DNA from: a virus
Strand: one strand, 5' to 3'
Virus record (IMG/VR): IMGVR_UViG_3300030389_004697
Span: 1 to 29,648 of that record
DNA: 29,648 nt
This document shows, one piece after another, positions 3,689 to 29,648 of this stretch. The position numbers were made by a program, and so were the translations under genes. Each line of letters starts with the position of its first letter. The stretch's first letter is position 1. The notes beneath the pieces were generated by a model. It had not been told where the DNA came from, ran no database searches, and was given only the letters and a program-made list of their open reading frames with translations.

Positions 3689-3690
3689 TT

Positions 3691-4284
3691 TTAATAAAAA
3701 CCTCCATCTATCAATCCAGCAGTGAGTGTTCCGGTTATATCAGCATTTGCACCAACAGTTAATGCACTTGTGATATCTGCATTTCCACCGATATCTACAT
3801 TACCGCCAACAGTAAAATTACTGGTAACATTAGATGTTACTGCAGTTAAAATACCAGTGATGTTTCCATTTCTGGCATTGAATTCGTCAAATCTTAAATC
3901 ATCTCCAACATATAGGTCACCACCTACAAAAAGGTCGCTTCCAGTTGTGACAATTCCAATAAATGACGAAACACCTGCAATATTTAGTTGTTTTGCAAAT
4001 AATGTAGGTGCTGTGACTGTTGTGATTCCATTTAATGTTGTTAAACCATCAATGGTAACAATGTCTTTGAAAAAAGATCCTCCAAAAAAAGTGGAGACAC
4101 CTGGCATTCCAGAAACTTCACCAACTGATAGTTGAGAAACCGAAGCAATACCACCAACTACATTAATAGCGGTATCAGCACTTATCGCTCCACCTGAGGC
4201 AGCAGCGATAACTTTAACAGCATTTGATTGTCCGACACGGGCTTTGATACTATCTCCACCTACACGAACTTTGATGTTTGCCAT
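3691..4284 (-). CDS. Repeat-rich fibre-like structural protein (197 aa)
   Basis: Probably a virion appendage protein. Residues 1-30 hold two similar halves (KVRVGGDSIKARVG). From about residue 45 the protein is a run of short beta-like repeats with G-[IVL]-[ST]-[TV]-x-x cores, including GGDLYVGDDLRFDEFNARNG and, near the end, NVDIGGNADITSALTVGANADITG. This pattern is common in cyanophage tail-fibre-like proteins and suggests a trimeric beta-structured shaft. It lies immediately upstream of gene 13, where T4 has wac (fibritin, the neck whiskers), but I see no coiled coil or sequence match to fibritin. AAGGAGT (4294-4300) is a good ribosome binding site, and the start overlaps the previous stop by one base (TAATG). 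Confidence 0.72.
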   Translation of the reverse strand: MANIKVRVGGDSIKARVGQSNAVKVIAAASGGAISADTAINVVGGIASVSQLSVGEVSGMPGVSTFFGGSFFKDIVTIDGLTTLNGITTVTAPTLFAKQLNIAGVSSFIGIVTTGSDLFVGGDLYVGDDLRFDEFNARNGNITGILTAVTSNVTSNFTVGGNVDIGGNADITSALTVGANADITGTLTAGLIDGGFY

Positions 4285-4640: not shown

Positions 4641-4859
4641 TTATTTACTATTTATGACTAAGTTAATCCCCTCCTTCAATTCTTTTAAGGCATCTTTGAT
4701 ATCTTGTATATCATTCTTCATCTGATCAATTTCATTTTTCTTCATTTCTGATGCCTTTACACTACGAACATAATTATCATAGGCAACATCATCACAGTTT
4801 ACAATTGCACCCGTATTCTCATCACGATAAAGATTTTTATGTCCTTCAACTTTAATCAT
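4641..4859 (-). CDS. Small coiled-coil protein (72 aa)
   Basis: A short protein of unknown function. Residues 1-35 contain a compact segment (GHKNLYRDENTGAIVN, then YDNYV). Residues 36-66 are strongly charged with heptad-like spacing of Met/Ile/Leu (MKKNEIDQMKNDIQDIKDAL), so a coiled coil and oligomerisation are likely. The start codon overlaps the stop of the preceding 2515-codon gene in the ATGA arrangement, which points to translational coupling and co-expression. Its 3' end contains the late promoter box of the next gene. Similar small proteins accompany large structural genes in cyanophages as far as I recall. A role as chaperone, connector or small virion component is a guess from context. 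Confidence 0.75.
   Translation of the reverse strand: MIKVEGHKNLYRDENTGAIVNCDDVAYDNYVRSVKASEMKKNEIDQMKNDIQDIKDALKELKEGINLVINSK
4649..4656 (-). promoter_or_regulatory. Candidate late promoter for the 112-aa gene
   Basis: CATAAATA on the minus strand matches the cyanophage late promoter core NATAAATA. It lies at the very end of the 72-aa gene, 26 bases before the next start codon, which is a plausible leader length for T4-type late transcripts driven by gp55-like sigma factor. Confidence 0.6.
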
Positions 4860-12408: not shown

Positions 12409-13995
12409 TTAGAATTCCAGAATAATTTTAACGTCTTCTTTTTGCCTTGCGTCTCTTGCGACCAGGTCTCTATTATCAATATAAATTATATCACCTGTCT
12501 GTTTATTTATCTCAGGTTTCGCAAGACCTCCTGAGAAGGTTACTCCTAAACCCACTACTTTATTACCTACAGATACTGTAGCACCATTAAAATCTTCTAC
12601 ATTTAATGTGATATTACCTCCGGATACTTGAGTTATAGTGATATCACCTGTTGTAAACTCAACAATTTTACTTTCTAAGTTTACACCTACATAATCTGTT
12701 TGATTAGTAGGACTTTCAGAATTAAAATATAAAGATCTATCTCTCGAATATTTCAAAACTTTTGTTTGTCTATCATATGAAGTAACATAACCCTTTGCAT
12801 TTCCCTGAGTGATTTTAGAACCTACTTCTGGGTCATTGGTTGGATTTGCAGTAATTTTTGCAGCAAAGGAGGATGAAAAATTTATACCATCGAATATAGT
12901 GCTATCGGTAAATTTCTCAGGGTTTTTTAAAATTCCAACTTGAGAGAATTTTGTTGAAGTTGGAAAACTTTGTGTTGAATCATCAAATCTAGAATAAATT
13001 AAAATTTTATCCGCACCAAGTTCTGTATATAAATCAAATCCATGTCCTCTAGAAGGTGGTATAATTGGAATTAATTTCGCTCTATCAGCCAAATTTATTG
13101 ACGATGATGTTTGTACTGGAGTTAAATCGACAATTCCGTATGTATAACCCTGACCACCAGAGGTTACCTCAGTATCAGTTATTTTTCCATTTTTATCAAC
13201 AGTAACAGATACCTGACCACCTGTCCCATCTCCTAGGATATCACAAGTAAATGTTCCTGAGTCATATACAGACGCAGAAGTACTACCTCTATTTTCGATG
13301 TATACCTTTTTAATCTGGTTATTATTAATTCGAGAATCACCTGCCTCCCTTACAGTTTGTATTTGACTATCAGTTGATGTTGGCCAATCGTTAGGTAAGG
13401 CAATGAATTCAGTAGAGTCAAATTTAATAATATCACTAGGTGCTATTGTATAAAGGTACTTCCAAACATACCCATCACCACTCGTACCTGCTGGAGATGG
13501 TCTAGTATTCGTAAATGTTGGTTCGTCTAATGAAGTTCCTCCCCTTGCAGTATCAGAACCTGGTGCACCTGAGGATCCATTATCAATGCAGATATAAACT
13601 CTTAGATCGCTGTTTATAACATAATAATTTGATCCATATAAATTTGTACTCTCCGAATTAGGTGATTTATTACTCGCACTATAATCGTGACGATACATAT
13701 CATACCTAGTATTTGAAACCCAACTATTTTTTTTAACAACTCTTCTGACATTTGATGGTAATATTTTTTTACCAAATAAAGTTGTGTCTCTATAGTGAGA
13801 AAGATACTGAAAATTATCGACTGGGGGTGTATTATTTGGCCAATTGGCATCGGTTGCTCTTCCGAAACCAGCGGATGGATTAGTGGGATTTGATAATCCT
13901 AAAAATACATAATAAGAATTTGATGAATCAAATAATGAGTCAACAAAGTTATTTGCATTAAATATTCTAAATTGGTCTGTAACTACGGCTGGCAT
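12409..13995 (-). CDS. 8: Baseplate wedge protein gp8
   Basis: gp8 dimerises and binds the gp7 arm of the baseplate wedge in T4. Family matches: PSNVRRVVKKNSW followed by NTRYDMY (T4 PSMLDAVIPRRDW then DTRYPDPY), GDGYVWKYLY (about 171-180; T4 GDGYVWEYLF), an F-I-A-L-P segment, and the C-terminal end DIIYIDNRD followed by an acidic K-x-x-I-L-E-F (T4 EMIYMENRP, then ILFTF). It is 528 residues, against 334 in T4. The additional length is in the second half, where a G-x-GY repeat (GGQGYTYG) and an AKGYVTSYD module are found, so the core seems to have gained inserts shared with its neighbours. It lies directly after the gp7-like gene, as in T4, with its own late promoter. Confidence 0.9.
   Translation of the reverse strand: MPAVVTDQFRIFNANNFVDSLFDSSNSYYVFLGLSNPTNPSAGFGRATDANWPNNTPPVDNFQYLSHYRDTTLFGKKILPSNVRRVVKKNSWVSNTRYDMYRHDYSASNKSPNSESTNLYGSNYYVINSDLRVYICIDNGSSGAPGSDTARGGTSLDEPTFTNTRPSPAGTSGDGYVWKYLYTIAPSDIIKFDSTEFIALPNDWPTSTDSQIQTVREAGDSRINNNQIKKVYIENRGSTSASVYDSGTFTCDILGDGTGGQVSVTVDKNGKITDTEVTSGGQGYTYGIVDLTPVQTSSSINLADRAKLIPIIPPSRGHGFDLYTELGADKILIYSRFDDSTQSFPTSTKFSQVGILKNPEKFTDSTIFDGINFSSSFAAKITANPTNDPEVGSKITQGNAKGYVTSYDRQTKVLKYSRDRSLYFNSESPTNQTDYVGVNLESKIVEFTTGDITITQVSGGNITLNVEDFNGATVSVGNKVVGLGVTFSGGLAKPEINKQTGDIIYIDNRDLVARDARQKEDVKIILEF
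12504..12511 (-). promoter_or_regulatory. Candidate late promoter upstream of the 2515-aa gene
   Basis: GATAAATA on the minus strand, inside the end of gene 8 and 100 bases before the start of the giant DUF4815-type gene. It matches the NATAAATA core, but it also encodes residues around EINKQ, so it could be coincidental. Confidence 0.4.
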
Positions 13996-14013: not shown

Positions 14014-14021
14014 TATTTATA
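14014..14021 (-). promoter_or_regulatory. Late promoter for gene 8 (perfect TATAAATA)
   Basis: An exact T4 late promoter core, TATAAATA, overlaps the stop codon of the 4271-codon gene and lies 18 bases before the gene 8 start. The leader would be very short and contains an A-run rather than a clear ribosome binding site. Confidence 0.7.
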
Positions 14022-17000
14022 CAGATTTAGGTAAAGCACCTGTATTCCTCAGAGTGTAATCCCCTCCCGCCCTTTGAATGGTTGGGAAAGTTGACAAATT
14101 AGAATCTACTGTTAAACCTGTGACTGTTATTGAAATTGGGTTTGAACCCCTAGTAATGTTGTTCAATCTACCAAATGATAATGAACCTAAGTCATCACCA
14201 GTTGTTGTACTTATATCTGAATTAGGAACAACTGCTCTACACCTAATTGTTCCAGTAACTCCAGTATTAGAGACTCCAGATACTTGATATACATTATCAA
14301 AGAATGTCGATCCTATGCATACGTTAGCAGAACCAGATGTATTTCTAGATACCACACCATTAGTAGTATGCACTGTAGTATCTTTTACAAGTATAAAATC
14401 TCCAAAATTCAATCCCGATCCATCACCTTTCTCATAATCAGTAAATCCATCATCTCTTTTTGTTGTAAATACGATATCTGTTCCACCTGTTCCTACAGCT
14501 ATACCTGTAATTCTTGCTGTAAATCCAGTTATAAAACCAACATTACCTGTTCTTTCTCTAAGTACGACTGGAGGTTGTACAAGAACACTTGGAGCAATTG
14601 TATATCCTAAACCTGGATTAGTAATTGCAAATCCATCAATCGCACCACCACTTACTGTTACTGTTGCAGTTGCAGTTGTAGCAACAGCGACTGAACCATC
14701 TGCTTTTATGAAAGTTCCTACTCCAACTGATGGTGATGAGATTGATACTGATGGTGCACTTGTATAATTAGCACCACCTGAGACGATTGATAATCCTGAT
14801 ACAGTTCCAACACCTGATACCGCTGCTGTAAGTGAACCAACAGTGGGTAGAACTGCATTTGAAATTATTTGAATAGGGAAATTTGGAGCCGTATGCTCAT
14901 AATTAAATAATTTTACATCGTCCACATATAAGTTATTGGTGCCATTACCAGTTGATGTGGTGATATCAGCAATAACTTTTGCAGTTGGAAATATTTGTGC
15001 AGCAATAGAATCTCTTGTTTTTGGAACAATTCTGGAATTTATTATTTTATCAACTTTCTGTTTATACAAATGCATGGGTCTGTCGATAACAGAATTGATT
15101 CCATCTCCAGTATACAAATTAGTTTCAAATCTATCCTTAGATGTAAGATTTACAATTGTTCGTTCTTCCTGTAGAGGCACAGTGCCAATCCCTGTTAATT
15201 GAACAGTGTCACCCTCTTCAAGAACTTTATCAATACTTGTATTAATAACAGCGTCTGCTCCACTTCCTTTATAGAAGTATATTGCAACATCATCTTCCTC
15301 AGTAGGTGGTGTCGTGAACGCAAATGTAGTTCCCCCCTCAAATTGATAATTTACACCTGGTTTTTGATTGACACCATTTACAAATATCAATAGTAAATTT
15401 TGAGATATAATGTCTGATCCTTTTTGTGCCTGTATGCTTAATAGTTCACCATTATAGAATAATGGGAATATATTTCTTGTGCCATCTTGTAAAGACTTAA
15501 TTGAATCAATAAAATCAAATTCACCAAATTGCCAAGATGAGAAATTATCTTCATAGACTTCTTCAACTTCTAATATGAACGTAGTTATTGGTCTTGCAAG
15601 ATTCCTTTCCGTTACAAGTCCTACAGGTGTGAACTTATCACCTTTTCTAAATTTATATCCTCCTCTTGATAATTCAAAGTTTTTAACTGAGAATAAAGTT
15701 GAACCAATTCCAGTAGGTAGACCAGATGAATTTACTTCTACACTTATTAGAGCACCGATTCCTGTTTCAGGACCAGTTCCAAATCCAACTCTTGAAATAC
15801 CTTCAATCGCCATATCATCATATGATGGACTTGGTAAGAATATTTCTGGTTCTTTGTAATTTGTACCACCATGAGCAACATTAAATGATAGTACACCACC
15901 TTTTCCGATTGTTGTGGTAACGTGTGCGCCAGTACCTACATTCTTACCTACGTTTACTGTAATTGAATTGGTAGTAAAGGAAGTAATACTTAGTGTTTGT
16001 CCTGCTGCTGGATCGGTTGCTCTTGGATATGCATGATTTGTTCTATAATCATCTTTTGAACAAGTGAATGAAATTGAACCTGTTGCTATTGTAACTGTAT
16101 TGCTTCCTGTCAAACCGTGACCATTTATGAATAAAACAAGATCTCCTGTTACTGGGTCATATGTTGCATCAGATGGGGTAAACTGTGCTCCTGTATTTGC
16201 AGTTACTGCATTTGTAGATGCACTTGCAAATACATGGTCATAACCAGGATCAAATACTGTTGCTGGAACTGATACACCATCTGTTGTGACTCCAATATTG
16301 TATCCAGAACCGAATGTTAAATCACCATACCATTCTCTTACAAATCCTCCACTTGTGTAAGTGTGGGGAATTGTGCTTGTTCCAACTTGAGCTGTGAATT
16401 TTTTATCTGTTGCAATTTCAACAACTGAGAATTTATCACCTATTGTCCCATCAGGGAAGACTCCTGAACCTATGGGATTACCACCAGAGGTGCAAGAGAA
16501 GTTTAAACCTGAAAGTAATACTTCATCATTATATCCAATTCTCAAATTATGTTTGTTAGTTGTCGTAATATCTAAAAGTCCAGTTAAGTTATCATAGGAA
16601 GCAGATGTAATATTATTTACTGCACCACTATATGCAGCTCCAACTATTCCAGTGATTGCTCCGGAACCGTTAAGTTGAGGTTTTACTTTTGCAGGGAGTA
16701 AAGGAGCGTATCCTAATCCACCTGTAGAACCAAGAGATACAATTACACCACCTCTTGGTAGGTCATTTTGATTAATATCAATGTCACTTCTAAATATTGA
16801 TCCACCTTGATTAACACCAGAGAAAATCGCAGTTGTTGTTGTCACCCCTGAAGTTTCATTTTCAACTATATTAAAATTACCGTCTGCATTGTTAACAGTT
16901 GTTGGTCTTTGGAAAATATTATTGATAAACATGATTCCATTTCCACCAGTATTACCAAGACCAGATGTTGATGAACCACCAGATTTTAATTCAAATGCGT

Positions 17001-20000
17001 TTTTGATACCATCAAATTGATTTGAGATATCGTCATATATTCTATTTCCTGTATAATCATTTCTAAAGTATACTCTACCTTCAAAATCAGATTTAGCAGG
17101 AGGTAAATTTGATTCATCTACAACAATTGATGAATTACCTCTTGGTGCCTCAGTAAAGTGAATTTCATTTCCAACAATGTTGTAGGCACCTCTGAATACC
17201 TTTGCATTAGCATTATTTGCATGAGTGGCTTTCAGAGTTCCTATGTAACCTCTCTTTACACCAACTAATGGTAATGTACCTGTTCCACTAATTGGACCTA
17301 TTGCCAATGTTCCAAGTCCTACGTTTGTAACTCTCATAAACTCATTATCAATCTTTAATACATCTTCAATATTGATGCCAGAAATATTTGATAAACTAAA
17401 GATTGTAGATGCTGCACTTATTGATCCACCATTATTTGCCACTTGGTAAACTATATTTGTCTGTGCTATCGGATGTTGAACTAATCCGTCAATAGTTATT
17501 AATGCCTTTGTAAGTGACTTAGACATTTCAAACCTGTGATTATTACCTTCTCCAGGTTCCATAAATGTAACAGCAGTTCCAGCTTTTGTTAATGATATTG
17601 AAAATACATCATCACTTTCTTTTATCGCAAATACGCTTGTTGGTAGTGTATTAATATTTCCTCCTGAATCTTTGTACATCATTGGGGTAGAACCAACTCC
17701 TACAAATGATGCTTGTGGTGTGTAAATTAATTCCTCACCTGTTCTAAAGAAGTGATTAGGTATTGTGAATTTACCAGTTCCAAAACTAACGATTCCAGTA
17801 TTTGATGGATCAAATGTTTTAGCAAAAATTGGAGTTCCATTAGATGTGAGTTCAAAATCTCTTCGATTAATTCTTGCTCCATTCAGAGAGTTAAATAATT
17901 TGATATTTGATGTTTGTGTTAATTTTCCGATGACAAGTGGTGCTGGATTATTGACTGCTCCTGCTGCTGATTTAACATCGCTGTCTCTGTAGAAAACTTC
18001 ATTAAAAGATCTTACCGTTGTGTATCCAACATTAGGGAGTGTTGTATCATAACCAATTTGAATATCAGGAACAAATTCTAGATTTAAATTATTACCTATA
18101 AATCTAGCTTTAAATGTACCAATTCCAGATGGAGTATTGCCACCAGGATTATCAACAGTTCCTCCAGATAAAAACTGATTTTGATTTATAAAGACTGTAT
18201 CAGTTGCACCTCTTTGAATTACACCATATACTTGATGTAATGCTTCTCCATATGTTGAGGCAACTGAAACCGTTGATTTAAATGAAGAGAATAGATTTTT
18301 ATTGAATCTTCCAATTGTACTTAAACCTATCTGTGTATCATGTTTTGATTCAAATAATTGAGTTCTCTCACTACCATTTGATTGTCCTGGTGCTAAGAAT
18401 CTATGTGTACCAGTTCCATCACTCGTTGGTCCAAATCCAATTATACTTGATCTGATTTTTACAGGATTTGCTCCTTCATTTGTAAAGATTAGTGCCAAAA
18501 CACCACCATTTGTAGATGCACCAAATGTTCCAATAAAATTAGAACTAAATGAACCCTGACTACTATCAGTAAATGCCTGAGACATAAATGTGATACCAGA
18601 GTTGATTCCCACTAGGGTTTCAACAAAATTCATTTCATTCGTTACTAAATCAGTGACTTGTGAGTTAACAAATAGACTTTGTGATGTTGTTAAAGGTGTA
18701 GATATCAAGGATGATGTAGTTCCGGTTGCTACGTTTACAATAGAACCTGTTAGATTTACAAGTCCAAACGCACTTGATCCAGTTCCTGCTAGAGTTGAAT
18801 TAAATTTAGACTCATAGAATTTAATGTCATAATCAACGTCAAACTTAAATTTATCAAATGGTGTAAATCTTAATACATTCCTATCACCTGTTTTATCTAA
18901 TGTAAATTTTGTAAAATCAGGACTCTGGGTTGTAGTTAAACCAATTCCTAAACTAACTTCATTTGATATGCTGGTTTTATTTTTTTCAAGTAAATAAACT
19001 CCTGAATTATTATTCAATATTACTAATTCAACGATTTGATTTTGATTATTATTTGTATCTTTAATTGTCGCAAGAATACGATTAAAACCATCACCTGCCT
19101 CAACTTCTAGTAAGTCAGTGAATAAATTAGGATTAGTTTCTAAATTAGAATATTGTGAACTGATGTCATCAATATTTAAAACGTTATTTGTCTTTGCTTC
19201 AACAAAATCTGTTAGATTTATATTTTCTAATTGAATGAATTTTGAGGATTTTTGATTTAAACTTAATCCAGTTGTTGTTCCTGCACCACTAACTGAAAAT
19301 CCTTCAAAAATATCTTTTGCGGTATCAAAATTATAAAGAGAATCAACTCTAACCTGTCTTAAAAACTCAGGAAAAACATCTAAAAGTACTGAGATTCTTG
19401 CGGTTCCAATACCAGGAAATGCACTTGAAGTTGATGTGATGCCTGTATCTGAGAAATTTTTAAATCCTGAAGTATGAACTAAGTTATTAACAGGACTATT
19501 TAAATTATTCCAAGTTATAGGACTTTGTATTGAATATGATAAATTTTGATAGTAATCATTATCAGGTAAAACTTGAATGTCTTCATTTAATTTACCTACA
19601 TTAGTCTCCCATCCTAAATCTTTAATTAACGAATAATTTACTTCAAATTGACCTTCGTTTATGAATAAGTCTTTAATGACACCCTTATTTCTTGATGAAG
19701 CACCGACAATAGTATCATTATTTTTTAAATCATATAAACCTATAAGTTTAACAAAATTTTCACCTGAATCAACAACAGTTAAATCCCTCTCAATTCCATC
19801 AATTATAATTTTTTCACCAATGGTAAATCCACCTTCAACTAAATTTAATCTAAATCTTGGATAATCTCTACTATTAATAATTTCTCCAAATGAATCAATT
19901 GTTTCAACTGCTTTACCAGTATTTGTAGTGTATTGAGATACGTCAATTAAAATTTTATCTAAAACACCACTACTATCATAATTAGTGACTGGTAAAAATT

Positions 20001-23000
20001 TAAATCCGTAATCTTCTGAATTAAATCCAGATCCTGCAGTTCCTACCTTTTGAAGACCCTCTATGAATACAGAATCTCCTGCTGCAAATGGGTTTGTAAT
20101 ATATCCTCCTGCTGGTTTTGAAATTGAAACTACGAAAGTGCTGACACCTGTATAAGATTCTACGTTTTGAATACTTACCCCATTTGAATTTTCAGTCGTA
20201 AATAATCCGACTCTACCTACAGATAAACCAGATGGTGATTGTTCTACAATTACCGAATTAATTGAAGTCCCAACTAATAATGCATTTAATGAAGTTTCTT
20301 CAAATACTTTTCCAGTTTCTGTATCTACTACAACTAATGAAGGAGTACTCAAATAATTAGAACCTCCACTGACTATATCGACACTTGATATTTTTTTAGA
20401 TCCTCTTAATTGAACGAAAGATGGAATTAAAGCTTCTGGTTGTAATGTAGGATCAGATGCATATTCATAACCCTCATTTATAACTCTGGTTTTTTTGATA
20501 TTACCAATTGTTTTTGATTTTGGAAGAACATTTACATCAAGTATTGTAGTTGTGCCTACGCTTACAAAGGATGGTAATTTCTTATAATTTGAACCACCTG
20601 TGATAATGTTTACTGAATTTATTGATCCAGTTACAATTCCTGATTTTGTGCTGTATTTTAAAATATCACAATCATCAGATGTAATTGTTGACCTTAATGG
20701 TACTTTTAAAGAATCAAAAGTGAATGTATTTAAACCTACGTTTGAAATTTTATGAGTGCCTTTTAAATTATTATCTACAAAAATAATTTCAGAATAACCT
20801 TGAACAGTAGTATCTGCAGTTACTTCTTCACCTAATTTTTTAAGACCATAGTATAGTCTATCAGGTAAACTCTTTCCAAATCCAGTTGAAACTGTTAATT
20901 TATCAGTATAATCAAGTGGCACATTAAAACCAACGCTTGAACCAGTGGATACAAATTCATTTTTAAACTCTTTATCATAGAAAAGTTTTAATTTATATCC
21001 AGAAAGTGATGAATCTGTTAAGTTAAATACTAAATTGTCATTCTTTTCTACAAAAATTTGTGGATTAATTTTTTCAAATGTATGAATTGCTGAACCTGTA
21101 ATTGTAGGTATGTCAAAAATAACTGGAGGATTCGCAATTGCATTTTCATAAGAATCACACAATTTAAATGTATTTGTATCAATTCCACTAACAAAGAAAC
21201 CGCCATTTTTTAATCCAGTATTCGTTGAGAAATGTTGAACTTTATCTCCTGTCTTAAGACGATGATTATTTAAAGTTACTTTATTGTCTGCAGAACTTAT
21301 CGCACCTACAAGGCATTGCACAGAGTCTGCAAGTATGAATCCAGTATTTGAATCTCTACGAACTACAACTTCAGATAATTCACCTATTCCAACTGAGGTG
21401 TTAGAACGTACATCGAGTGTAATTAAATCATTGTCTTTTAACTGGTGGAAGGGTGAACTTAGAGATACAGTATTTTTAATATTTTGTACATCTACCTTTT
21501 CTTGTACAAAAGTTGATTCAAAGAAATACTTATCACTATCAGCAACTATTGAAGCACCAACGTTGTCTTCTAAAAATACCTCAGGTCCTCCAAGAGTTAA
21601 TTTAAGTCCAATAATATTTTTATTTTTTCTAACTGCAAAAACAGTTGATGGCATAGGATAATAACCTACACCTGGTACTGTTGCTGATACTCCTATCGGA
21701 TTTCCATCATTTGTAACTGTTAATTTTTGATTAGTGACAAATGGATGATTTTCAAGATATATTCCCTTCACAGGAATATTTCTAGTAATAGTGGTTGCAC
21801 CAAACCTAAATGTTCTTGCTACCGATTTACCAGTGGTCGCTCCAAACCCAACTGCTTTTCTGGGATTGAAGTATTGTTTTTGATTTACAGTTGATTTAAT
21901 TTTATCTACAGATTTTTTAATTGTAAATGAATCTGGAACCACATAAATTGATGTAGAAATACCATGTGATATATTTGCATCTAAACCTCTTTGAACTGTT
22001 ATTATATTAGGTTTATCATAGGTGTTGAGAACTTTAAATGTTTCATTATTTGCTATTAATGCATTACCAGGTTCAACTTTAGATGCCAAATCAGTATACA
22101 TTTCAATTGTCGTAGATCCAGCACTAGTTTGAGCAGCAATGGCAACCTGAAGCGTCCCTGTGACAGTTGTAACACCAACAATATATGATCCATTAATATC
22201 TGATAATGACGATGTTAAACCTGATATAACTGCTAAATCTCCATTGCTCAAATTATGATTATTTGTTGGTGTGATTCGAAGAGTATCATTATCTTCTTTT
22301 GTGATGACAGCATCATTATATTTTAATACGTCTGTAACAATACTTGTAATTGGTTCACCTTTAATAGAATCAACTTTTGCAATAATTCCATCACCTTCAG
22401 TACCATCATTGTTAAACTTTAATATATCTCCTACTTTTTGATTAGTTCCACCTTCAATTATTTCTATTGAATTTACAGAACCAGACTCTACTGTTTGAAT
22501 CTCTATTTTTTGAGTTTGTAAATCACTTGCTTCTGTTAAGAAATCATTTCCAGCAGTTTTTTCAGATACATTGTAAGGAAAAGTATTTCTTCTTAAAGAA
22601 GAATTTATAAAATCGAATGATTGATTAATTCTAAAGTTATCATCTTCTACTTTAGATCTGTACTTATCTCCGATAAAATATGGAAACTCAGGATCACCAT
22701 TTGCATCAATTGTAGCGTGATATGCATATACACCATTTGGATAGTCATCATTAATTTCAAATCTACCATTATACTCATCCAAATCACCATTATTTGTGAA
22801 TTGATAATCCTCAATAAAAAATCCCGAATCAAGATTAGGTCTATCAATAATTGATGATGTGTTTTGATATCCACTTACTAATCGTTTTGGTTCATCTATT
22901 TTCTTTTCAGGATCACGTCCATAAGGTCCATAAATTGGATTTCCATCATATGCCCATCCTATAATTCCAGATGGGGTATTTTCATTCTCATTAAATGACT

Positions 23001-26000
23001 TAGTTGAGTATCCTGTAACAACATTTTGAAGAATACCGTTATTTTCCTGTAAATTTACATTAACTCCTGCCCCATATTTAATTGTATTGTTAACATTCAG
23101 TTCTCTGACATTTGCAGTAATTACAGCACCATTTCCTGATGGTGTAACACGCAGTGATGTTGTTGAATCTGAATATCCAATTCCTGCAGATATAACCTCA
23201 ACATCTATAAAAGAACCAGTTTCAAAATCTATAATTGGATTTAACTTTGCTCCACTACCTTCTCCAATGACTTCAACATCTGGAGTTGAGAAATAACCTC
23301 CACCAATCTCATCTACAGCGATTGATGATATACCACCTGTATTTTTATCTATGATGGGTATTAATTGTGGAAGTCTACCATCTGAACCATTTTTAATTGT
23401 TACAATAGGATTATTCTCAAAGTTTAAGATTGTTGATCCATACCCTGCTCCCCTTTCATGTAAATATACATCACTTATTTCTCCTCTAACTATTGGTGTT
23501 ATTTTTGCTACCACTTGTGTATTTGTTCCCTGAATCACTGTACCAGTAGTAACACCAACATACTCTACAAATGCTTCAATATCTGGATATTTAAATGTTT
23601 GAGTCCCGATACCTGTGGATTGTAAATCAACAAATAATTTTTGACTATAATTTAATAATGAAGTTCCACCTATACCAGCATCAGATAGTTTAAATGAATT
23701 GTCATTAACTCTAGTAACTATGTACTGTTGATTAGGTGCTGTAGATAATCCACTAATTGTAGTTCCAACGTGTTCATATATTATTTTGTCACCATCTCTA
23801 AAGTTATGACCTTCAAAAGTAATCTGATTGAATATTGTTGAAATACCTGTTGGTTGAACAAATAATTTTCGATTTTCATAACCATGACCAGATGAAAGAA
23901 CACTCACTCCTAAAATTGTATTGTTTGGACTACCTACAATTAATTTTTGTGTTCCTCCAGTTGTACTTACGAGTTGAATTGCTTCATCTGGAGTTACTTC
24001 ACTAAATGCTAGGTCTTGTGATCTGAAAAATCTAACACTTTTTTCATTTACAACATGTACAAAATATTCTTGATTGGATGCAAAAATACCTAAGTTTGAT
24101 GTACCAATTCCTACATTTTCCGAAGTTTGACCAATTGATACAGATCCTAATGTATCATATATCACTCTATCACCAGTTAGTAAATTATGACGGTCTTTAA
24201 ATGTTAATGTTGTCAAATCTCCATCAGCAGTTCCAATACCAAAATCATCATCTGAGTTAAATGGTTGTACTTTAAATAATATTTCTCTTGATCTCTTTCC
24301 TATAATTGGTTCTAAAACTGCACCTGAACCATTACCACCAGTAACACCAATTGACACAACTCTGTCAAGATCGAAAGGTAGTTCTCCTATTAATGCATCT
24401 ACTACTTTACCTTTAACACAGGGTTGAACCGATGCTCCAGCACCAACAGTTTTAGAAACTTCAATTATGGGAGGATTTATTACATCATATCCACTACCAC
24501 CAGATAATATATTAACTTTAGAGAGAGGACCAAAAAATATTTTATCATTTGCCTTATAATTAAATATTTCAACACCATTAATTAATTTACCAATTGTACC
24601 TGGTAATGTTGAGTCAACTCCCCCATTTTTTAAATTTGGTGATAATGGAAATTTCTTTAATGATTTTGCAGGTTCTATCTTGTTTGATCTTTGAGAATAT
24701 AAAGTAAAGGTATGTGTTAAACCAGAAATTATACCTCCACTATTATCTTTTGGTAATTCTAATTCTATCCCAGAACCGCTAGAGATGAATGATCTTGAGG
24801 AATATAGTTTGATTAACTGCTGATTTTTATCAACTACTTCTACAAAATATGAACCAGTTTCAATACCAACGGTTAATATCTCATCACCAGTTCCAAACTG
24901 ATTAAAAGTAGCACCAGATGATTCATAATAAATCTCATCTCCTGTAACTAAAGGTATTTTACTTGCATCAGTTAAAAATCCTTTTACTTTAATTTTTCTA
25001 TATTTCTTAGTATCATTGTTTAAATCTGTAAGTTCTTCTAAAACAACTTTGTTTAAATTTGATGTGATATTTTCTCTAAATGGTGCTGCTGTTCCTAACT
25101 TACTATCAAATTCTGAATTTTTACTTGATGGTAATGAATTAGACGCTGTATAACCATGATTATTATCAAAATACACATTGGTAACATCTGATGTAAGATC
25201 ATTTAATAAAGGAACATATTGACTAAATGGTGTATTTAATTTCCTTCTTAAGTTCCATCTATCAGAATCCTTATTGAATGAATCTGGTACTACATTTAAT
25301 GTTACTTCATTATTTGCTATCCCTTCAACGTATGGTTGAGTGTCTGTTTCTGTGGGGAATATGATTGAATCAGGTTGATTTCGGTCTACAAACTCTACGT
25401 AGTCACCTACTTTTAAGGTTGATCTATCTACAGGAGTTTTTAAAACCACGTCAGTACTATCAATATCTTCAATTTCAAAATATGATGATGTATTGTAAAT
25501 CCAAGAATTTGCAAATATCTCTCTCCTATCTTTGACTAATGGATTAAAAACTTTAACTCCTAAATTTTTAATACTTAATATATCCCCCTCCGATACGTTT
25601 ACATTTTCCGAAGTTTGTTTAAATTTAGATATAATTCCTGCAATTCTAAATTCTACCTTTTTAGTTAAATCTCCATCCTCGAATCCAAAGTAGATTTCAT
25701 CAGAGTGAACACTATCAGATTGTTTAATTTCATCATTTATACCTGTACAACCTAAAAATTGATTAATAGTCTTATCTGAATAAGATATTGTATTGTTACC
25801 TGAAATAATCGAACCTGTTTGAGCAAATCCGATTGTTGAGTCAACAGTAATGGTTGATGAACCACTGGATACCTTTACTACAGATTTACTACTTGGTGTA
25901 ATTTTAAAATTACCTTCAACTAATGATGCACCACCATAACCTACAAAAAGTTGAAATTTGAAATATTGTTTTCCCTGTCTTGTAAAAGGTTCAACCTCTG

Positions 26001-26832
26001 AAACTGATGCTTGAGTTTCTGGATCATTTAATTTTTCAATTTTTTTAATTGTTTGACCAACCAACCCAATTGGATCACCGGATAAAACTTCTACAATAAC
26101 AGTTTCTCTTCTTAAATACTCAGCTGCTGATGGTTTGAATAATAAATCTTCTAAATTTATAATTCTTGGATTGACACCATATAAAACACGGAATAATATT
26201 TTAATCGCATCATCAGTCCCTTTCGATTCATAAAAAGATTTTATTTCCTTTAAAAAATTACCGACATTAAGATTATCATCAAATTTAAGGTTTTCAAATC
26301 CTGGTGCAAACGTGCGTTTGAACTTATTAAAAAATTCTTTTAAAAATAACTTACTTAAATTTTGAACTGGAGACGAATCTGCATGTTCTGCTGCATCTGA
26401 TGTTGTAAAAACTAATTCCTCTTCATTTAAATCATCACGATAAGATGATATACCACTAAATCCACGAGTAATACCAGTAAAGCTATTTGTAGTTAGACCT
26501 GTATAAGTAATAATCTCATTATCTATTTTTAATAAACCATATTGACTTGGAAATCCCTTGGTACTACTGACTTGTATAGTATCAGCACCAATTGTAGTGA
26601 TACCAGTCGTAGTGATATTATCATTGATAACTTCAGGTGTTAAATTGTCAAGATTAAGATATTGATCTAAATTTTCAACAATATCTACTACCCCACTTTG
26701 ATATTCCTGTGAGATATAGTATTGCTTTAAAAAATCAGCAGTCTTTGGACTCTCATCCAAAATAAAATTTGGAAGTTGAGAAGATATTACATCTTGTATT
26801 TTAACTCTAGATTCAATACCTGTTTGTATCAT
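14017..26832 (-). CDS. Giant gp7-like baseplate wedge protein (4271 aa) with many beta modules
   Basis: An uninterrupted frame starting one base after the gene 6 stop. Position (6, this gene, 8) is that of T4 gene 7, whose product (1032 aa) links two gp6 copies in the wedge. Residues 1-60 and 150-241 look like a wedge core: FLKEFFNKFKRTFAPGF, then FYESKGTDDAIKILFRVLYG (about 200-220), resembling the KGT helix of P2 gpI-type tail proteins. The remainder is mosaic: KIDNE-type modules (near 76-131, 323-364, 1566-1624, 3138-3209), H-x-L-x-x-GD repeats (874-942, about 1005-1052, 1521-1560, 1852-1894, 3022-3087), G-x-GY repeats throughout, a YHYH-type domain (about 1288-1390) and a LLLIFVNGVNQKPG module (about 3811-3862). 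It probably sits in the baseplate and extends outward. Assignment as gp7 is by position and motif, not alignment. Confidence 0.82.
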   Translation of the reverse strand: MIQTGIESRVKIQDVISSQLPNFILDESPKTADFLKQYYISQEYQSGVVDIVENLDQYLNLDNLTPEVINDNITTTGITTIGADTIQVSSTKGFPSQYGLLKIDNEIITYTGLTTNSFTGITRGFSGISSYRDDLNEEELVFTTSDAAEHADSSPVQNLSKLFLKEFFNKFKRTFAPGFENLKFDDNLNVGNFLKEIKSFYESKGTDDAIKILFRVLYGVNPRIINLEDLLFKPSAAEYLRRETVIVEVLSGDPIGLVGQTIKKIEKLNDPETQASVSEVEPFTRQGKQYFKFQLFVGYGGASLVEGNFKITPSSKSVVKVSSGSSTITVDSTIGFAQTGSIISGNNTISYSDKTINQFLGCTGINDEIKQSDSVHSDEIYFGFEDGDLTKKVEFRIAGIISKFKQTSENVNVSEGDILSIKNLGVKVFNPLVKDRREIFANSWIYNTSSYFEIEDIDSTDVVLKTPVDRSTLKVGDYVEFVDRNQPDSIIFPTETDTQPYVEGIANNEVTLNVVPDSFNKDSDRWNLRRKLNTPFSQYVPLLNDLTSDVTNVYFDNNHGYTASNSLPSSKNSEFDSKLGTAAPFRENITSNLNKVVLEELTDLNNDTKKYRKIKVKGFLTDASKIPLVTGDEIYYESSGATFNQFGTGDEILTVGIETGSYFVEVVDKNQQLIKLYSSRSFISSGSGIELELPKDNSGGIISGLTHTFTLYSQRSNKIEPAKSLKKFPLSPNLKNGGVDSTLPGTIGKLINGVEIFNYKANDKIFFGPLSKVNILSGGSGYDVINPPIIEVSKTVGAGASVQPCVKGKVVDALIGELPFDLDRVVSIGVTGGNGSGAVLEPIIGKRSREILFKVQPFNSDDDFGIGTADGDLTTLTFKDRHNLLTGDRVIYDTLGSVSIGQTSENVGIGTSNLGIFASNQEYFVHVVNEKSVRFFRSQDLAFSEVTPDEAIQLVSTTGGTQKLIVGSPNNTILGVSVLSSGHGYENRKLFVQPTGISTIFNQITFEGHNFRDGDKIIYEHVGTTISGLSTAPNQQYIVTRVNDNSFKLSDAGIGGTSLLNYSQKLFVDLQSTGIGTQTFKYPDIEAFVEYVGVTTGTVIQGTNTQVVAKITPIVRGEISDVYLHERGAGYGSTILNFENNPIVTIKNGSDGRLPQLIPIIDKNTGGISSIAVDEIGGGYFSTPDVEVIGEGSGAKLNPIIDFETGSFIDVEVISAGIGYSDSTTSLRVTPSGNGAVITANVRELNVNNTIKYGAGVNVNLQENNGILQNVVTGYSTKSFNENENTPSGIIGWAYDGNPIYGPYGRDPEKKIDEPKRLVSGYQNTSSIIDRPNLDSGFFIEDYQFTNNGDLDEYNGRFEINDDYPNGVYAYHATIDANGDPEFPYFIGDKYRSKVEDDNFRINQSFDFINSSLRRNTFPYNVSEKTAGNDFLTEASDLQTQKIEIQTVESGSVNSIEIIEGGTNQKVGDILKFNNDGTEGDGIIAKVDSIKGEPITSIVTDVLKYNDAVITKEDNDTLRITPTNNHNLSNGDLAVISGLTSSLSDINGSYIVGVTTVTGTLQVAIAAQTSAGSTTIEMYTDLASKVEPGNALIANNETFKVLNTYDKPNIITVQRGLDANISHGISTSIYVVPDSFTIKKSVDKIKSTVNQKQYFNPRKAVGFGATTGKSVARTFRFGATTITRNIPVKGIYLENHPFVTNQKLTVTNDGNPIGVSATVPGVGYYPMPSTVFAVRKNKNIIGLKLTLGGPEVFLEDNVGASIVADSDKYFFESTFVQEKVDVQNIKNTVSLSSPFHQLKDNDLITLDVRSNTSVGIGELSEVVVRRDSNTGFILADSVQCLVGAISSADNKVTLNNHRLKTGDKVQHFSTNTGLKNGGFFVSGIDTNTFKLCDSYENAIANPPVIFDIPTITGSAIHTFEKINPQIFVEKNDNLVFNLTDSSLSGYKLKLFYDKEFKNEFVSTGSSVGFNVPLDYTDKLTVSTGFGKSLPDRLYYGLKKLGEEVTADTTVQGYSEIIFVDNNLKGTHKISNVGLNTFTFDSLKVPLRSTITSDDCDILKYSTKSGIVTGSINSVNIITGGSNYKKLPSFVSVGTTTILDVNVLPKSKTIGNIKKTRVINEGYEYASDPTLQPEALIPSFVQLRGSKKISSVDIVSGGSNYLSTPSLVVVDTETGKVFEETSLNALLVGTSINSVIVEQSPSGLSVGRVGLFTTENSNGVSIQNVESYTGVSTFVVSISKPAGGYITNPFAAGDSVFIEGLQKVGTAGSGFNSEDYGFKFLPVTNYDSSGVLDKILIDVSQYTTNTGKAVETIDSFGEIINSRDYPRFRLNLVEGGFTIGEKIIIDGIERDLTVVDSGENFVKLIGLYDLKNNDTIVGASSRNKGVIKDLFINEGQFEVNYSLIKDLGWETNVGKLNEDIQVLPDNDYYQNLSYSIQSPITWNNLNSPVNNLVHTSGFKNFSDTGITSTSSAFPGIGTARISVLLDVFPEFLRQVRVDSLYNFDTAKDIFEGFSVSGAGTTTGLSLNQKSSKFIQLENINLTDFVEAKTNNVLNIDDISSQYSNLETNPNLFTDLLEVEAGDGFNRILATIKDTNNNQNQIVELVILNNNSGVYLLEKNKTSISNEVSLGIGLTTTQSPDFTKFTLDKTGDRNVLRFTPFDKFKFDVDYDIKFYESKFNSTLAGTGSSAFGLVNLTGSIVNVATGTTSSLISTPLTTSQSLFVNSQVTDLVTNEMNFVETLVGINSGITFMSQAFTDSSQGSFSSNFIGTFGASTNGGVLALIFTNEGANPVKIRSSIIGFGPTSDGTGTHRFLAPGQSNGSERTQLFESKHDTQIGLSTIGRFNKNLFSSFKSTVSVASTYGEALHQVYGVIQRGATDTVFINQNQFLSGGTVDNPGGNTPSGIGTFKARFIGNNLNLEFVPDIQIGYDTTLPNVGYTTVRSFNEVFYRDSDVKSAAGAVNNPAPLVIGKLTQTSNIKLFNSLNGARINRRDFELTSNGTPIFAKTFDPSNTGIVSFGTGKFTIPNHFFRTGEELIYTPQASFVGVGSTPMMYKDSGGNINTLPTSVFAIKESDDVFSISLTKAGTAVTFMEPGEGNNHRFEMSKSLTKALITIDGLVQHPIAQTNIVYQVANNGGSISAASTIFSLSNISGINIEDVLKIDNEFMRVTNVGLGTLAIGPISGTGTLPLVGVKRGYIGTLKATHANNANAKVFRGAYNIVGNEIHFTEAPRGNSSIVVDESNLPPAKSDFEGRVYFRNDYTGNRIYDDISNQFDGIKNAFELKSGGSSTSGLGNTGGNGIMFINNIFQRPTTVNNADGNFNIVENETSGVTTTTAIFSGVNQGGSIFRSDIDINQNDLPRGGVIVSLGSTGGLGYAPLLPAKVKPQLNGSGAITGIVGAAYSGAVNNITSASYDNLTGLLDITTTNKHNLRIGYNDEVLLSGLNFSCTSGGNPIGSGVFPDGTIGDKFSVVEIATDKKFTAQVGTSTIPHTYTSGGFVREWYGDLTFGSGYNIGVTTDGVSVPATVFDPGYDHVFASASTNAVTANTGAQFTPSDATYDPVTGDLVLFINGHGLTGSNTVTIATGSISFTCSKDDYRTNHAYPRATDPAAGQTLSITSFTTNSITVNVGKNVGTGAHVTTTIGKGGVLSFNVAHGGTNYKEPEIFLPSPSYDDMAIEGISRVGFGTGPETGIGALISVEVNSSGLPTGIGSTLFSVKNFELSRGGYKFRKGDKFTPVGLVTERNLARPITTFILEVEEVYEDNFSSWQFGEFDFIDSIKSLQDGTRNIFPLFYNGELLSIQAQKGSDIISQNLLLIFVNGVNQKPGVNYQFEGGTTFAFTTPPTEEDDVAIYFYKGSGADAVINTSIDKVLEEGDTVQLTGIGTVPLQEERTIVNLTSKDRFETNLYTGDGINSVIDRPMHLYKQKVDKIINSRIVPKTRDSIAAQIFPTAKVIADITTSTGNGTNNLYVDDVKLFNYEHTAPNFPIQIISNAVLPTVGSLTAAVSGVGTVSGLSIVSGGANYTSAPSVSISSPSVGVGTFIKADGSVAVATTATATVTVSGGAIDGFAITNPGLGYTIAPSVLVQPPVVLRERTGNVGFITGFTARITGIAVGTGGTDIVFTTKRDDGFTDYEKGDGSGLNFGDFILVKDTTVHTTNGVVSRNTSGSANVCIGSTFFDNVYQVSGVSNTGVTGTIRCRAVVPNSDISTTTGDDLGSLSFGRLNNITRGSNPISITVTGLTVDSNLSTFPTIQRAGGDYTLRNTGALPKSV
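14560..14810 (-). repeat. C-terminal G-x-x-Y repeats of the 4271-aa protein
   Basis: Two units with cores GGANYTSAPSVSISSP and GLGYTIAPSVLVQPP, joined by a Thr/Ala/Val beta-rich linker. They are the closest look-alikes of the gp14 repeats. Confidence 0.7.
15245..15400 (-). other. LLIFVNG...PG...GGT module near the C-terminus of the 4271-aa protein
   Basis: A recognisable beta module: LLLIFVNGVNQKPGVNY, a GGTTFAF strand, a PP-x-EED turn, then VAIYFYKGS. It is preceded by QDGTRNIFPLFYNGELLSI. This pattern recurs in phage tail fibre and baseplate proteins, where it is thought to be structural. Confidence 0.55.
16400..17770 (-). repeat. KIDNE and H-x-L-x-x-G modules, late part of the 4271-aa protein
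   Basis: Three units are visible: IPNHFFRTGEELIYTP at about 17740, VLKIDNEFMRVTN with a trailing KRGY at about 17230-17400, and TNKHNLRIGYNDEVLLSGL at about 16500-16560. They repeat module types seen near the N-terminus. Confidence 0.55.
21150..21280 (-). repeat. H-x-L-x-x-GD repeat unit
   Basis: A clear single unit: NNHRLKTGDKVQHF, then GLKNGGFFVSGI and NTFKLCDS. It matches the H-G-L-x-x-G-D ... Y-x-V ... F-x-L pattern that databases often label FCCH-like in phage proteins. Confidence 0.6.
22664..22970 (-). other. YHYH-type domain in the 4271-aa protein
   Basis: Residues about 1288-1303 read IIGWAYDGNPIYGPYG, the hallmark first motif of the YHYH domain. About 65 residues later comes VYAYHATIDANGDPEFPYFI, in the place of the second Y-H-x-x motif. 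The domain function is unknown; in bacteria it occurs in secreted, often metal-associated proteins. Here it is embedded in a virion protein. Confidence 0.7.
23095..23460 (-). repeat. Cluster of three G-x-GY repeats in the 4271-aa protein
   Basis: Cores GAGYGSTI, GGGYFSTPDVEV and GIGYSDSTTSLRV follow each other with spacers of 30-50 residues containing G-x-G-A-x-L-x-P-I-I strands. This is the densest cluster of the repeat in this protein. Confidence 0.7.
23676..24210 (-). repeat. Two H-x-x-x-x-GD repeat units
   Basis: Units RHNLLTGDRVIYDTLG and GHNFRDGDKIIYEHVG, each followed by an EYFVHVV or QYIVTRV strand and a FFRS or FKLSD ending. They lie about 130 residues apart and are easily aligned by eye. 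Confidence 0.7.
24295..24515 (-). repeat. G-x-GY repeat in the 4271-aa protein
   Basis: Unit GGSGYDVINPPIIEVSK followed by a V-G-A-G-A-S-V strand and a second half with VTGGNGSGAVLEPIIG. It is related in pattern to the gp14 repeats. Confidence 0.6.
26440..26605 (-). repeat. N-terminal KIDNE module of the 4271-aa protein
   Basis: TTIQVSSTKGFPSQYGLLKI continues to DNEIITYTGL and ends in GITRGFSG. It is the best conserved copy of a module seen at least four times in this protein and once in the 2515-aa protein. Confidence 0.7.
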
Positions 26833-26833: not shown

Positions 26834-28771
26834 TTAATCTCTTATTAAATTACCATTTGAATAACTTGATGTATAAAAATCTCTAGTAAACTGTGTTCCA
26901 GATATTTCGTCACCAGATGAAATGACATCCCTTAACATATTTATCGTGCTTTTTGATACACTTAATTGAAGATATAAATCTCTCAATCCAACTACGTCAT
27001 TTGATTCTGGGAATGCTTGAATTTCAATAATATTATTTTCTTTGACAGTAGATAATATATTAATAGTTGTAAGTTTTACTTCACCATGAATGTAATCGAC
27101 CACTCCAGCAGATTTACTCACAACTCTAATTTCACCATTTTCAATTGGTTTTACAATTGATAATACGCCAGTTTCACCATCTGCATTTGGAATATCAGTG
27201 ATGTATACAGGAGATGATTCACCTGAAACAAAGAATCCTGTCGATTTAATGTTGTAACCGTTCGGATCTACATGAAAACGATTTCCAAAACATAATTCAT
27301 ATTGAGCAAATTGGTTTACTGTTGCCTTCAAATCTCTTCGAATGATGATTTTTGTGATATTACTTGTCAATGCTGTATCAGTTTTGTCAATAACTTGTAA
27401 CACTTTACTATATTTAAACCTTCCACCAAAACGGTTAAAGTTAACAGACTGTGAATATTTTGTTAATGAATTTATAATTTTTGCTTTAAGTGTATCTTCC
27501 GTAGTAACCTGAGAATAATTATAGTAAGCTGAAATATCAAGTTCAACATACAGTATTTTAAGATCAATTAATTTTTGATTGATACCTGCAACGGTATACT
27601 TTTTAAGTTGTGATAGTATTCTTGATTTTGTAAAGTCAGAGATATATGTGGCACCTTTTGGTTTAATACTAATCTGCACTGTACCAAATTCAGGTGGATC
27701 TAACTCTTCTCCACCAACAACTGCAACTGATTCAGTTTCTGGAAATATTTGTTTAATTATACCTTCATAATCTCTAGGAGTTACTGCTCTATTCTGCGCA
27801 GAGTAAATTTTAGGTGAATAATACTTAATTGAATCTATTGGTTCAATATTAGCACCACCTTGTGATGGGGTTATAGTTGTAACAACAACACTTGTGATGT
27901 CAGGAGAAATATTTGGACTTGAAGTCCTAATAACATTACCGGAGAATGAAAATCCTGATGCTCCATTACCACTTTCACCATCTGATACAATATAATCTAC
28001 AGTTATTTCAGTTCCATCATTTGTGCTTCCTAATTTTTTTCCTAATAAACCATCACCAAAACGAATTTCATATTTTTCATCTTGAACTTCTTGTAAAAAA
28101 TAAACTCTTGAATTGCTATCTATGTTTGTAATATCATCAGAAATGATATATTCACGTTCACCAACGTATACATGAATTGTTGAAGTATCGATGAAAGAAT
28201 TATCTAAAATAAATTTTTGATCTAGAGAATTATCAAATGTAAATTTCTTATTTAAATATGTACCTTGACTCACAGTTATATTATTAAAATTAGCAAAATA
28301 ATGGTCACCCTCAATGGTAACTGGACTTACAATATTTTCAGATATTGAAAATGTAAAAGATGAATCTTGAACATTGCCAGTGCAAACTAAACCTTTAGTA
28401 ATTTCAACTGTTGTGCCATATGGTTGTGCGACAGTTTTGCCATCAACTCTTTCTGTTGATACTTCACCTAAGTCTAATTTAATAGACACTACTGCCTCTG
28501 CAGCAGACCTTGAGCGAGGAATATATCCAATGTTACGTGCAAGTGAAACAACGTTCTCACGGAGCGTTGCAGAGTCCAAAAACGACTCATTCACAATCAT
28601 ATTTGAGTTGAATGCAGTTATATATGTATTATACGCTAAAGTATCAAGTAATACAGAAAAGTTCGACCCTTCAAAGTCAAATCCATCAAAATCAGTGTTT
28701 GCTCTGAGATAATCCTTGATTGACGTTTTGATTTGATCAAAATCTAAATTTGTAAACTTGGTTATTGGCAT
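26834..28771 (-). CDS. 6: Baseplate wedge protein gp6
   Basis: gp6 forms the inner ring of the T4 baseplate: two copies bind one gp7 to build each wedge. The product has 645 residues, against 660 in T4. The N-terminal region shows the gp6/J-like pattern: FDGFDFEGSNFSVLLDTLAY (about 29-48), then FNSNMIVNESFLDSATLREN (about 54-73) and VSLARNIGYIPRS. The RFGDGLLGKKLG segment at about 230-245 is also characteristic, as is AVTPRDYEGIIKQIFPE in the C-terminal half. It lies three bases after the gene 25 stop and one base before the gp7-like gene. The start follows an A-rich stretch without a strong ribosome binding site. Confidence is high because both sequence pattern and context agree. Confidence 0.94.
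   Translation of the reverse strand: MPITKFTNLDFDQIKTSIKDYLRANTDFDGFDFEGSNFSVLLDTLAYNTYITAFNSNMIVNESFLDSATLRENVVSLARNIGYIPRSRSAAEAVVSIKLDLGEVSTERVDGKTVAQPYGTTVEITKGLVCTGNVQDSSFTFSISENIVSPVTIEGDHYFANFNNITVSQGTYLNKKFTFDNSLDQKFILDNSFIDTSTIHVYVGEREYIISDDITNIDSNSRVYFLQEVQDEKYEIRFGDGLLGKKLGSTNDGTEITVDYIVSDGESGNGASGFSFSGNVIRTSSPNISPDITSVVVTTITPSQGGANIEPIDSIKYYSPKIYSAQNRAVTPRDYEGIIKQIFPETESVAVVGGEELDPPEFGTVQISIKPKGATYISDFTKSRILSQLKKYTVAGINQKLIDLKILYVELDISAYYNYSQVTTEDTLKAKIINSLTKYSQSVNFNRFGGRFKYSKVLQVIDKTDTALTSNITKIIIRRDLKATVNQFAQYELCFGNRFHVDPNGYNIKSTGFFVSGESSPVYITDIPNADGETGVLSIVKPIENGEIRVVSKSAGVVDYIHGEVKLTTINILSTVKENNIIEIQAFPESNDVVGLRDLYLQLSVSKSTINMLRDVISSGDEISGTQFTRDFYTSSYSNGNLIRD
26938..26945 (-). 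promoter_or_regulatory. Candidate late promoter upstream of the 4271-aa gene
   Basis: GATAAATA on the minus strand, inside the end of gene 6 and 105 bases before the giant gene's start. It fits NATAAATA. The distance resembles that of the box before the 2515-aa gene (100 bases). Confidence 0.4.
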
Positions 28772-28774: not shown

Positions 28775-29176
28775 TTATCGTGTTGCTTCGAGAATGAATG
28801 AAAATTCTTGTCTAGGGAAATCTTGACCTATAATATCGAAAATAACTGTAACTTCAAAATTATTATCATCAGGACGAGGTTCGACTTCGACTTTTACATT
28901 ATTAATTCTTTTTTCAAAGTTATTTAATGCAGTTTTGATTTGTTCTTGTATAATTGATGCAGTACCAAAGTCTACAAAGTCAAATAAACTGCGATATACA
29001 TCAGAACCAAATAAAGAATTAAAAAATTTCTCAGTAGGTATCGTTTCAACGATATTTCTCACAGATCTTGTGATTGCTCTCTCATTTTTGAGAATTGGAA
29101 GATCTTTTGTCACAGGATGAGGCTCAAAAGACAAACTAATGTCCTTAAAAGACCTTGATATCCTTGTGATTGCCAT
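28775..29176 (-). CDS. 25: Baseplate wedge protein gp25 (lysozyme-like fold family)
   Basis: gp25 binds the gp6-gp7 core of the wedge and initiates sheath polymerisation; its relatives are P2 gpW and TssE of type VI secretion. The protein has 133 residues (T4 132). It carries the family pattern LKNERAITRSVRNIVETIPT (29-48), an FGSD-x-Y-x-S-L-F-D segment (56-66), and the conserved EPR triplet at residues 99-101 within a beta strand, followed by FEVTVIF. In T4 gene 25 lies in a different baseplate gene cluster; here it directly precedes gene 6. Two overlapping late promoter boxes lie 14-18 bases upstream, so it likely opens a late transcription unit. Confidence 0.94.
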   Translation of the reverse strand: MAITRISRSFKDISLSFEPHPVTKDLPILKNERAITRSVRNIVETIPTEKFFNSLFGSDVYRSLFDFVDFGTASIIQEQIKTALNNFEKRINNVKVEVEPRPDDNNFEVTVIFDIIGQDFPRQEFSFILEATR

Positions 29177-29329: not shown

Positions 29330-29348
29330 TATTTATTATCTATTTATG
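29330..29348 (-). promoter_or_regulatory. Two late promoter boxes before the 40-aa ORF
   Basis: CATAAATA (29341-29348) and AATAAATA (29330-29337) on the minus strand, 20 and 9 bases before the ORF start. The first is inside the last codons of speD. The distal one leaves a more plausible leader. Confidence 0.55.
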
Positions 29349-29648
29349 TCTTTCATCACATAATCTTCTGTATCGAAGTGTTCGAGTATCCACCAAGCAA
29401 CCATTCTTGGATTTTTGTTGCCACAAGTGAAAATATCGAAGGCAACACACCCCTTTTCTGGCCAAGTATGCAAACTTAGATGACTTTCTGCCAAAGTTAT
29501 GGTGCAAGTCACTCCCTGAGGATGAAATTGATGCGTATAATTGTTTAAAACTTGCAAATTTTCGATTTTACATGCTTTGAGGCACACTTCTTTAAGTTTA
29601 ATCGGGTCATTTAACTTTTCAAAGGGCACATTATACACTTCAACGAGT
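29336..29648 (-). CDS. speD: S-adenosylmethionine decarboxylase proenzyme SpeD (5' end outside window)
   Basis: Makes decarboxylated S-adenosylmethionine, the aminopropyl donor for spermidine. The proenzyme cleaves itself before a serine, which becomes the pyruvoyl cofactor. The diagnostic block AESHLSLHTWPE is present; numbering from the GTG at 29638, the cleavage serine is residue 52, the catalytic His 57 and the Cys of DIFTCG 72. HPQGVTCTITLA just before it is also typical of the bacterial short (about 120-130 aa) class. The frame stays open upstream to the window end (Leu-Val-Glu before the GTG), and LVEVYN fits the family N-terminus. The GTG is therefore most likely an internal Val codon and the true start lies outside. 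speD is a known auxiliary gene of T4-like cyanophages. Confidence 0.93.
   Translation of the reverse strand, partial: LVEVYNVPFEKLNDPIKLKEVCLKACKIENLQVLNNYTHQFHPQGVTCTITLAESHLSLHTWPEKGCVAFDIFTCGNKNPRMVAWWILEHFDTEDYVMKDINR

Follow-up and report, generated by a model that had tools for sequence, protein, structure and literature searches.

A giant protein in the gene 7 slot of a T4-like cyanophage fragment carries a gp7-type wedge core and a long modular extension

The window analysed here is an IMG/VR virus fragment of 29,648 bases in which the baseplate genes are read along the minus strand in the order gp25, gp6, the protein under study (P0001), gp8 and VrlC/DUF4815. A gp25-like wedge protein (28775-29176; PF04965, 4e-12) and a gp6-like wedge protein (26834-28771; PF21379, 5e-17) are followed by a single uninterrupted frame (26832 to 14017) encoding P0001, a protein of 4271 amino acids and 459 kDa that matches PHROG 2885, 'baseplate wedge subunit', with E=0. 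After it come a gp8-like wedge protein (12409-13995; PF09215, 1e-9) and a VrlC-type (DUF4815) giant structural protein of 2515 amino acids (4856-12403; PF16075, 5e-55; phrog_358), whose counterpart in S-SM2 carries the annotation VrlC. The strand continues past VrlC with small genes, their matches being to L-shaped fibre assembly, one baseplate wedge family, families of the gp13, gp14 and gp15 types, and the terminase small subunit. The gp25-gp6-slot-gp8 gene order is identical in annotated cyanophages. The sequence-only reading had described a 4271-residue uninterrupted frame between genes 6 and 8, and this position is correct, since P0001 is flanked on the same strand by genes that Pfam identifies as gp6-like and gp8-like; the minus-strand orientation is an addition to that reading. 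A PF10844 (DUF2577) match, and an ATG17-like match on gp25, were disregarded as weak. At the window edge lies a fragment of an S-adenosylmethionine decarboxylase gene (29339-29638, minus strand), a cyanophage auxiliary metabolic gene.

The frame itself was confirmed as an open reading frame, and shuffle and codon-bias tests agree with it. In 50 shuffles of the window the longest open stretch was 180 codons versus 4271 for P0001, and its GC content is 14% at the third codon position versus 40-43% at the first two. The frame remains open to the end of the sequence in 78 of 80 metagenomic relatives, with 3597 or more open codons in about 30 of them, and the long frame is therefore not an assembly artefact. 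Broken or split slot frames do occur in S-SKS1 and at two metagenomic loci, as might be expected if the long frame were a fusion artefact, or were processed so that the core alone entered the virion. We regard this explanation as very improbable, as the slot frame is intact at nearly all the loci as far as their sequence reaches, and as a homologue of P0001 by sequence comparison, S-SZBM1_208 (6619 amino acids, 724 kDa), was detected with 71 peptides and 13.5% coverage by mass spectrometry of CsCl-purified particles (PMC9146016). These peptides were published without mapping along the chain, but 13.5% of roughly 6600 residues is more than a core of about 250 residues could supply. The slot protein of S-CREM2, the counterpart of P0001 by position, has also been detected in virions (PMC10665884). 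The earlier expectation that the protein is a virion component is supported through the S-SZBM1 homologue. T4 gp7 is a monomer present in six copies per virion (PMC3004832); with T4 copy numbers assumed, P0001 would account for 30-46% of the mass of a wedge made of gp25, gp6, gp7, gp8 and VrlC, depending on the number of VrlC copies.

PHROG 2885 has a model length of 4179, and its best matching stretch covers residues 2-3399 of P0001. A search with residues 1-277 gave matches in 458 phage records at E<=1e-5; almost all come from Synechococcus or Prochlorococcus phages, and many already carry the annotation 'baseplate wedge initiator' or 'gp7'. The protein also aligns collinearly with six annotated slot proteins through to the C-terminus. 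Slot proteins range overall from 896 to 7312 amino acids, with P0001 in the middle of the range: 896 in Melnitz-1, 1007 in phiM19, 1937 in S-CREM2, 3048 in S-PM2, 3533 in ACG-2014h, 3895 in S-SRM01, 4156 in S-SM2 (YP_004322253), 4225 in ACG-2014f (YP_009134330), 4314 in S-CAM7, 4749 in S-T4, 4878 in Sf-CH8, 6076 in Syn9, 6619 in S-SZBM1 and 7312 in P-SSM4. The size of P0001 had been taken as remarkable; it is unexceptional, because 3000-7300 amino acids is usual in cyanophages. In marine cyanophages this gene normally encodes a giant gp7, in the present case a small conserved core followed by about 4000 residues of beta-rich modules. In the deposited S-SKS1 genome (L082 14991-25186) the gp7 slot is spread over three successive frames, mostly unannotated, while its relatives are intact; these breaks are probably deposition errors. 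The slot gene is also interrupted in two metagenomic relatives (L067 7216; L072 ~11620), with one in-frame stop and one frame change, which may reflect either a split gene or an error of sequencing.

The proposal that the first 240 or so residues form a wedge core holds as to homology with gp7-type cores, but the figure is approximate, because the core is not one block. A beta module separates the N-terminal helices (residues 1-70; 26623..26832) from the KGT helices (residues 155-250; 26083..26370). This module, with the pattern 'GFPxxGxIxIDNEIIxYTG' (residues 70-125; 26458..26625), belongs to a family, C, that self-comparison also finds at residues 312-364 and 3129-3199. The insertion point is variable, with this beta module in P0001, a different insert in Melnitz and about 500 amino acids in S-SZBM1. 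When a profile of 42 relatives of P0001 was compared by hhalign with one of 17 T4-type gp7 proteins, residues 190-356 aligned with T4 residues 721-859 (E=8e-6; the KGT helices fall against T4 ~721-860), and with the insert removed the core matched T4 gp7 at E=5e-7 with a score of 52, the best of 60 column shuffles reaching 24.4. Within T4 gp7, residues ~721-760 are the homologous counterpart of the KGT helix region. For the N-terminal helices a direct comparison of the cyanophage and T4 gp7 profiles was not significant, and the link runs only via a Melnitz intermediate: the cyanophage N-terminus matches the Melnitz-type N-terminus at E=2e-8, and the latter matches the helical domain of T4 gp7 at E=4e-4; in neither comparison did any of 60 shuffles do as well. 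For domain V, after the core, 1 of 60 shuffles scored as well as the comparison of the P0001 family with T4 gp7.

In five complete cyanophage genomes (ACG-2014f, S-CAM7, S-SM2, P-SSM4 and Syn9) searched from end to end, a T4 gp7 profile had a single place of match, the KGT helix of the slot gene (E of 5e-5 to 2e-4); it found no match in the window, S-SRM01 or Sf-CH8. Melnitz, phiM19 and P-SSM4 exceed the cut-off of PF23786 (Baseplate_wedge), and P0001 falls below it at 19.4 versus 27 bits. Neither Gp7_5th nor Gp7_6th matched P0001, and the core gave no match when searched by phmmer and by profile against PDB sequences. An AlphaFold model of residues 1-560 was weak (pLDDT 64, with the core below 50 in places); its best two Foldseek matches in the PDB were 9f4a_A0 and 5iv5_BJ, gp7-length chains from entries containing T4-type gp7, with TM-scores of just 0.12. 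Taken together, the profile match, its genome-wide specificity and these weak structural matches provide the gp7-type likeness that the sequence-only reading had looked for in residues 1-240, and at the level of sequence both the slot and the core homology of P0001 to T4 gp7 are established. The further suggestion of a KGT helix like that of P2 gpI-type proteins stands through relatives, TIGR02242 being matched by 26 of 26 cores of the short Melnitz type, but not directly, as searches of the window with PF09684 (P2 gpI) and PF06996 (TssG) gave no match. A profile of P2 gpI relatives was not usable, as the sequences gathered hardly differed from one another. Both outcomes that the sequence-only reading had named as refuting it were looked for, and neither was seen.

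It has been stated that in pelagimyophages and cyanomyophages T4 gp7 is missing and VrlC stands in for it (PMC7029224). If this were so here, the VrlC-type protein at 4856-12403 would do the job of gp7 and the slot protein would be an unrelated structural protein. However, the slot protein bears the gp7 KGT core and the VrlC of the window matches DUF4815 only, while phiM19 encodes a T4-sized slot protein with PF23786 close to VrlC in one gene cluster, from which it follows that gp7 and VrlC coexist. The substitution of VrlC for gp7 is already contradicted, and we give it hardly any credence. P0001 belongs to a known kind of protein. The published claim of absence (PMC7029224) is corrected for cyanophages by the homology of the KGT core to T4 gp7.

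After the core, P0001 remains collinear with its relatives to the C-terminus, with an alignment occupancy of 0.8-1.0 except around residues 3500-3600. Identity to relatives is 31-42% over residues 301-3400, compared with 41-60% for the core, 44-63% for gp8 and 42-50% for VrlC. Self-BLAST revealed no repeats in P0001 at E<=0.001, and only profile self-comparison brought out three divergent module families: A (about 100 amino acids, six copies), B ('GGxxYxxxPxVxI', about eight) and C (three). The second C module (residues 312-364; 25741..25899) is followed by an A module (608-714; 24691..25011), a B module (755-845; 24298..24570), two further A modules (867-972; 23917..24234, and 990-1087; 23572..23865) and a pair of B modules (1113-1235; 23128..23496). 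A YHYH domain then occupies residues 1283-1378 (22699..22986; PF14240, E=1.8e-18, 67.6 bits against a cut-off of 25). Past it lie A modules at residues 1691-1780 (21493..21762) and 1839-1928 (21049..21318), two B modules at 2038-2218 (20179..20721), the last A module at 3013-3105 (17518..17796) and the third C module at 3129-3199. A length-variable zone (3501-3600; 16033..16332; occupancy 0.44) precedes a B module (3629-3740; 15613..15948), the best-conserved stretch near the C-terminus (3701-3960; 14953..15732; 35-50% identity to relatives) and a final pair of B modules (3995-4104; 14521..14850). From these alignments, the conservation of the P0001 family through to its C-terminus is clear.

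Each of nine cyanophages tested has the YHYH domain in its slot gene, whereas T4, phiM19 and Melnitz-1 lack it there; among the phages tested the domain is restricted to those of cyanobacteria. Its name motif is degenerate (YAYH in P0001): the majority of 39 sequences read YAY[HYF], and the name-giving histidines are mostly lost. An AlphaFold model of residues 740-1490 (pLDDT 72) consists of beta domains in a row, and no PDB structure matched it at E<=0.001; among its viral matches, wedge-initiator and structural proteins of cyanophages rank highest. Foldseek also gave V-ATPase beta barrels and capsid proteins, which were dismissed as generic beta folds, and a 1aps match (E=0.05) from a PDB sequence search with 300 residues around the YHYH domain was taken as chance. 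The gp14-like neck protein (1406-2842, minus strand) is extended at its C-terminus by a part whose modules recur in the gp7-slot family (phrog_2885 positions 3912-4012) and in gp8, and one module pool thus serves several virion proteins.

The extension had been proposed to reach out as a fibre and to replace missing T4 parts such as gp9-gp12. In its strongest form this would mean a built-in fibre from each wedge that binds the host receptor itself and replaces both gp9-gp12 and the fibres. No significant match to gp9/10 (PF07880), gp11 (PF08677), T4 gp10 or T4 gp12 was found in the complete genomes of five close relatives (ACG-2014f, S-SM2, S-SRM01, S-CAM7 and Sf-CH8); P-SSM4 and Syn9, however, both have a longer gp7 and keep a gp9/10-like gene, so gp7 length is no simple trade against gp9/10 genes and simple replacement is doubtful. 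S-SZBM1 shows no long tail fibre by electron microscopy or in its proteome (PMC9146016), the YHYH domain is present throughout the cyanophage slot genes tested, and S-PM2d081, the slot gene of S-PM2, gained non-synonymous changes during coevolution with Synechococcus (PMC9910659), all of which would suit a fibre. Against this, the YHYH motif is degenerate; the gp7 chain is presumably monomeric as in T4, whereas fibres are trimeric; and adaptation of S-TIM4 to new hosts brought heavy mutation in a separate YadA-type adhesin-type protein (PMC6224464). The extension also has no hypervariable tip; it stays collinear and steadily conserved to the end and evolves like a baseplate component and not like a hypervariable fibre. 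A built-in fibre is therefore not established, and we consider a receptor-binding one improbable.

The best explanation overall, in which we have considerable confidence, is that P0001 is a gp7 wedge protein, the gp7 orthologue of a Kyanoviridae-type T4-like cyanophage, whose extension would build the outer baseplate. The first ~250 residues would join two gp6 subunits into a wedge heterotrimer, like T4 gp7 and the T6SS protein TssG, and the remaining ~4000 residues would form a chain of beta-rich domains running from the wedge to the outer baseplate. There the extension would do the structural work of T4 gp7 domains I-IV and gp9-gp11 and would offer docking sites for separate adhesins, while contact with the cell surface may also come from some modules, YHYH among them. 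For the extension we lean modestly towards the role of an adhesin-bearing scaffold in the outer baseplate; direct contact with the receptor is possible as well. It is rather unlikely, in our view, that cyanophage gp7 has taken the outer baseplate up into one chain, with the extension as a covalent, monomeric replacement of the separate gp9-gp12 rim of T4 that shares in host-surface sensing.

Marine cyanophages are among the most abundant contractile viruses. In the literature searched we found no baseplate structure of a T4-like cyanophage, and the present analysis places the largest structural protein of marine cyanophages on the T4 map. The question of a fibre can now be put in a testable form, namely where along the extension the host-facing part lies.

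P0001 shares with PHROG 2885 and the cyanophage 'baseplate wedge initiator' gp7 proteins a common slot, core, collinear modules and YHYH domain, and differs from other cyanophage gp7s in its length and in the variable zone near residues 3500-3600; in Syn9 and S-SZBM1 the core is split by an insert of about 500 amino acids, unlike the small beta module of P0001. In published structures T4 gp6(2)-gp7 and TssF2-TssG are equivalent wedge heterotrimers, and TssG and P2 gpI (Tail_P2_I) take the identical wedge place to gp7 (PMC6300606). With T4 gp7 (5IV5), which has 1032 residues, P0001 has in common the slot between gp6 and gp8 and a homologous KGT helix region. The core of T4 gp7 lies at residues ~643-762, in the C-terminal third, with peripheral domains before it, whereas the core of P0001 begins at residue 1 and the mass follows as a C-terminal extension of about 4000 residues that T4 gp7 does not have; the peripheral domains I-IV before the T4 core, and domain VI after it, were not found in P0001. 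Melnitz-1 and phiM19 resemble P0001 in having the core near the N-terminus, with PF23786, and differ from it in being short and without a YHYH domain. T4 is thus the odd one in the placement of the core, and a wedge core can carry peripheral mass on either side of itself in the chain, before it in T4 and after it in cyanophages.
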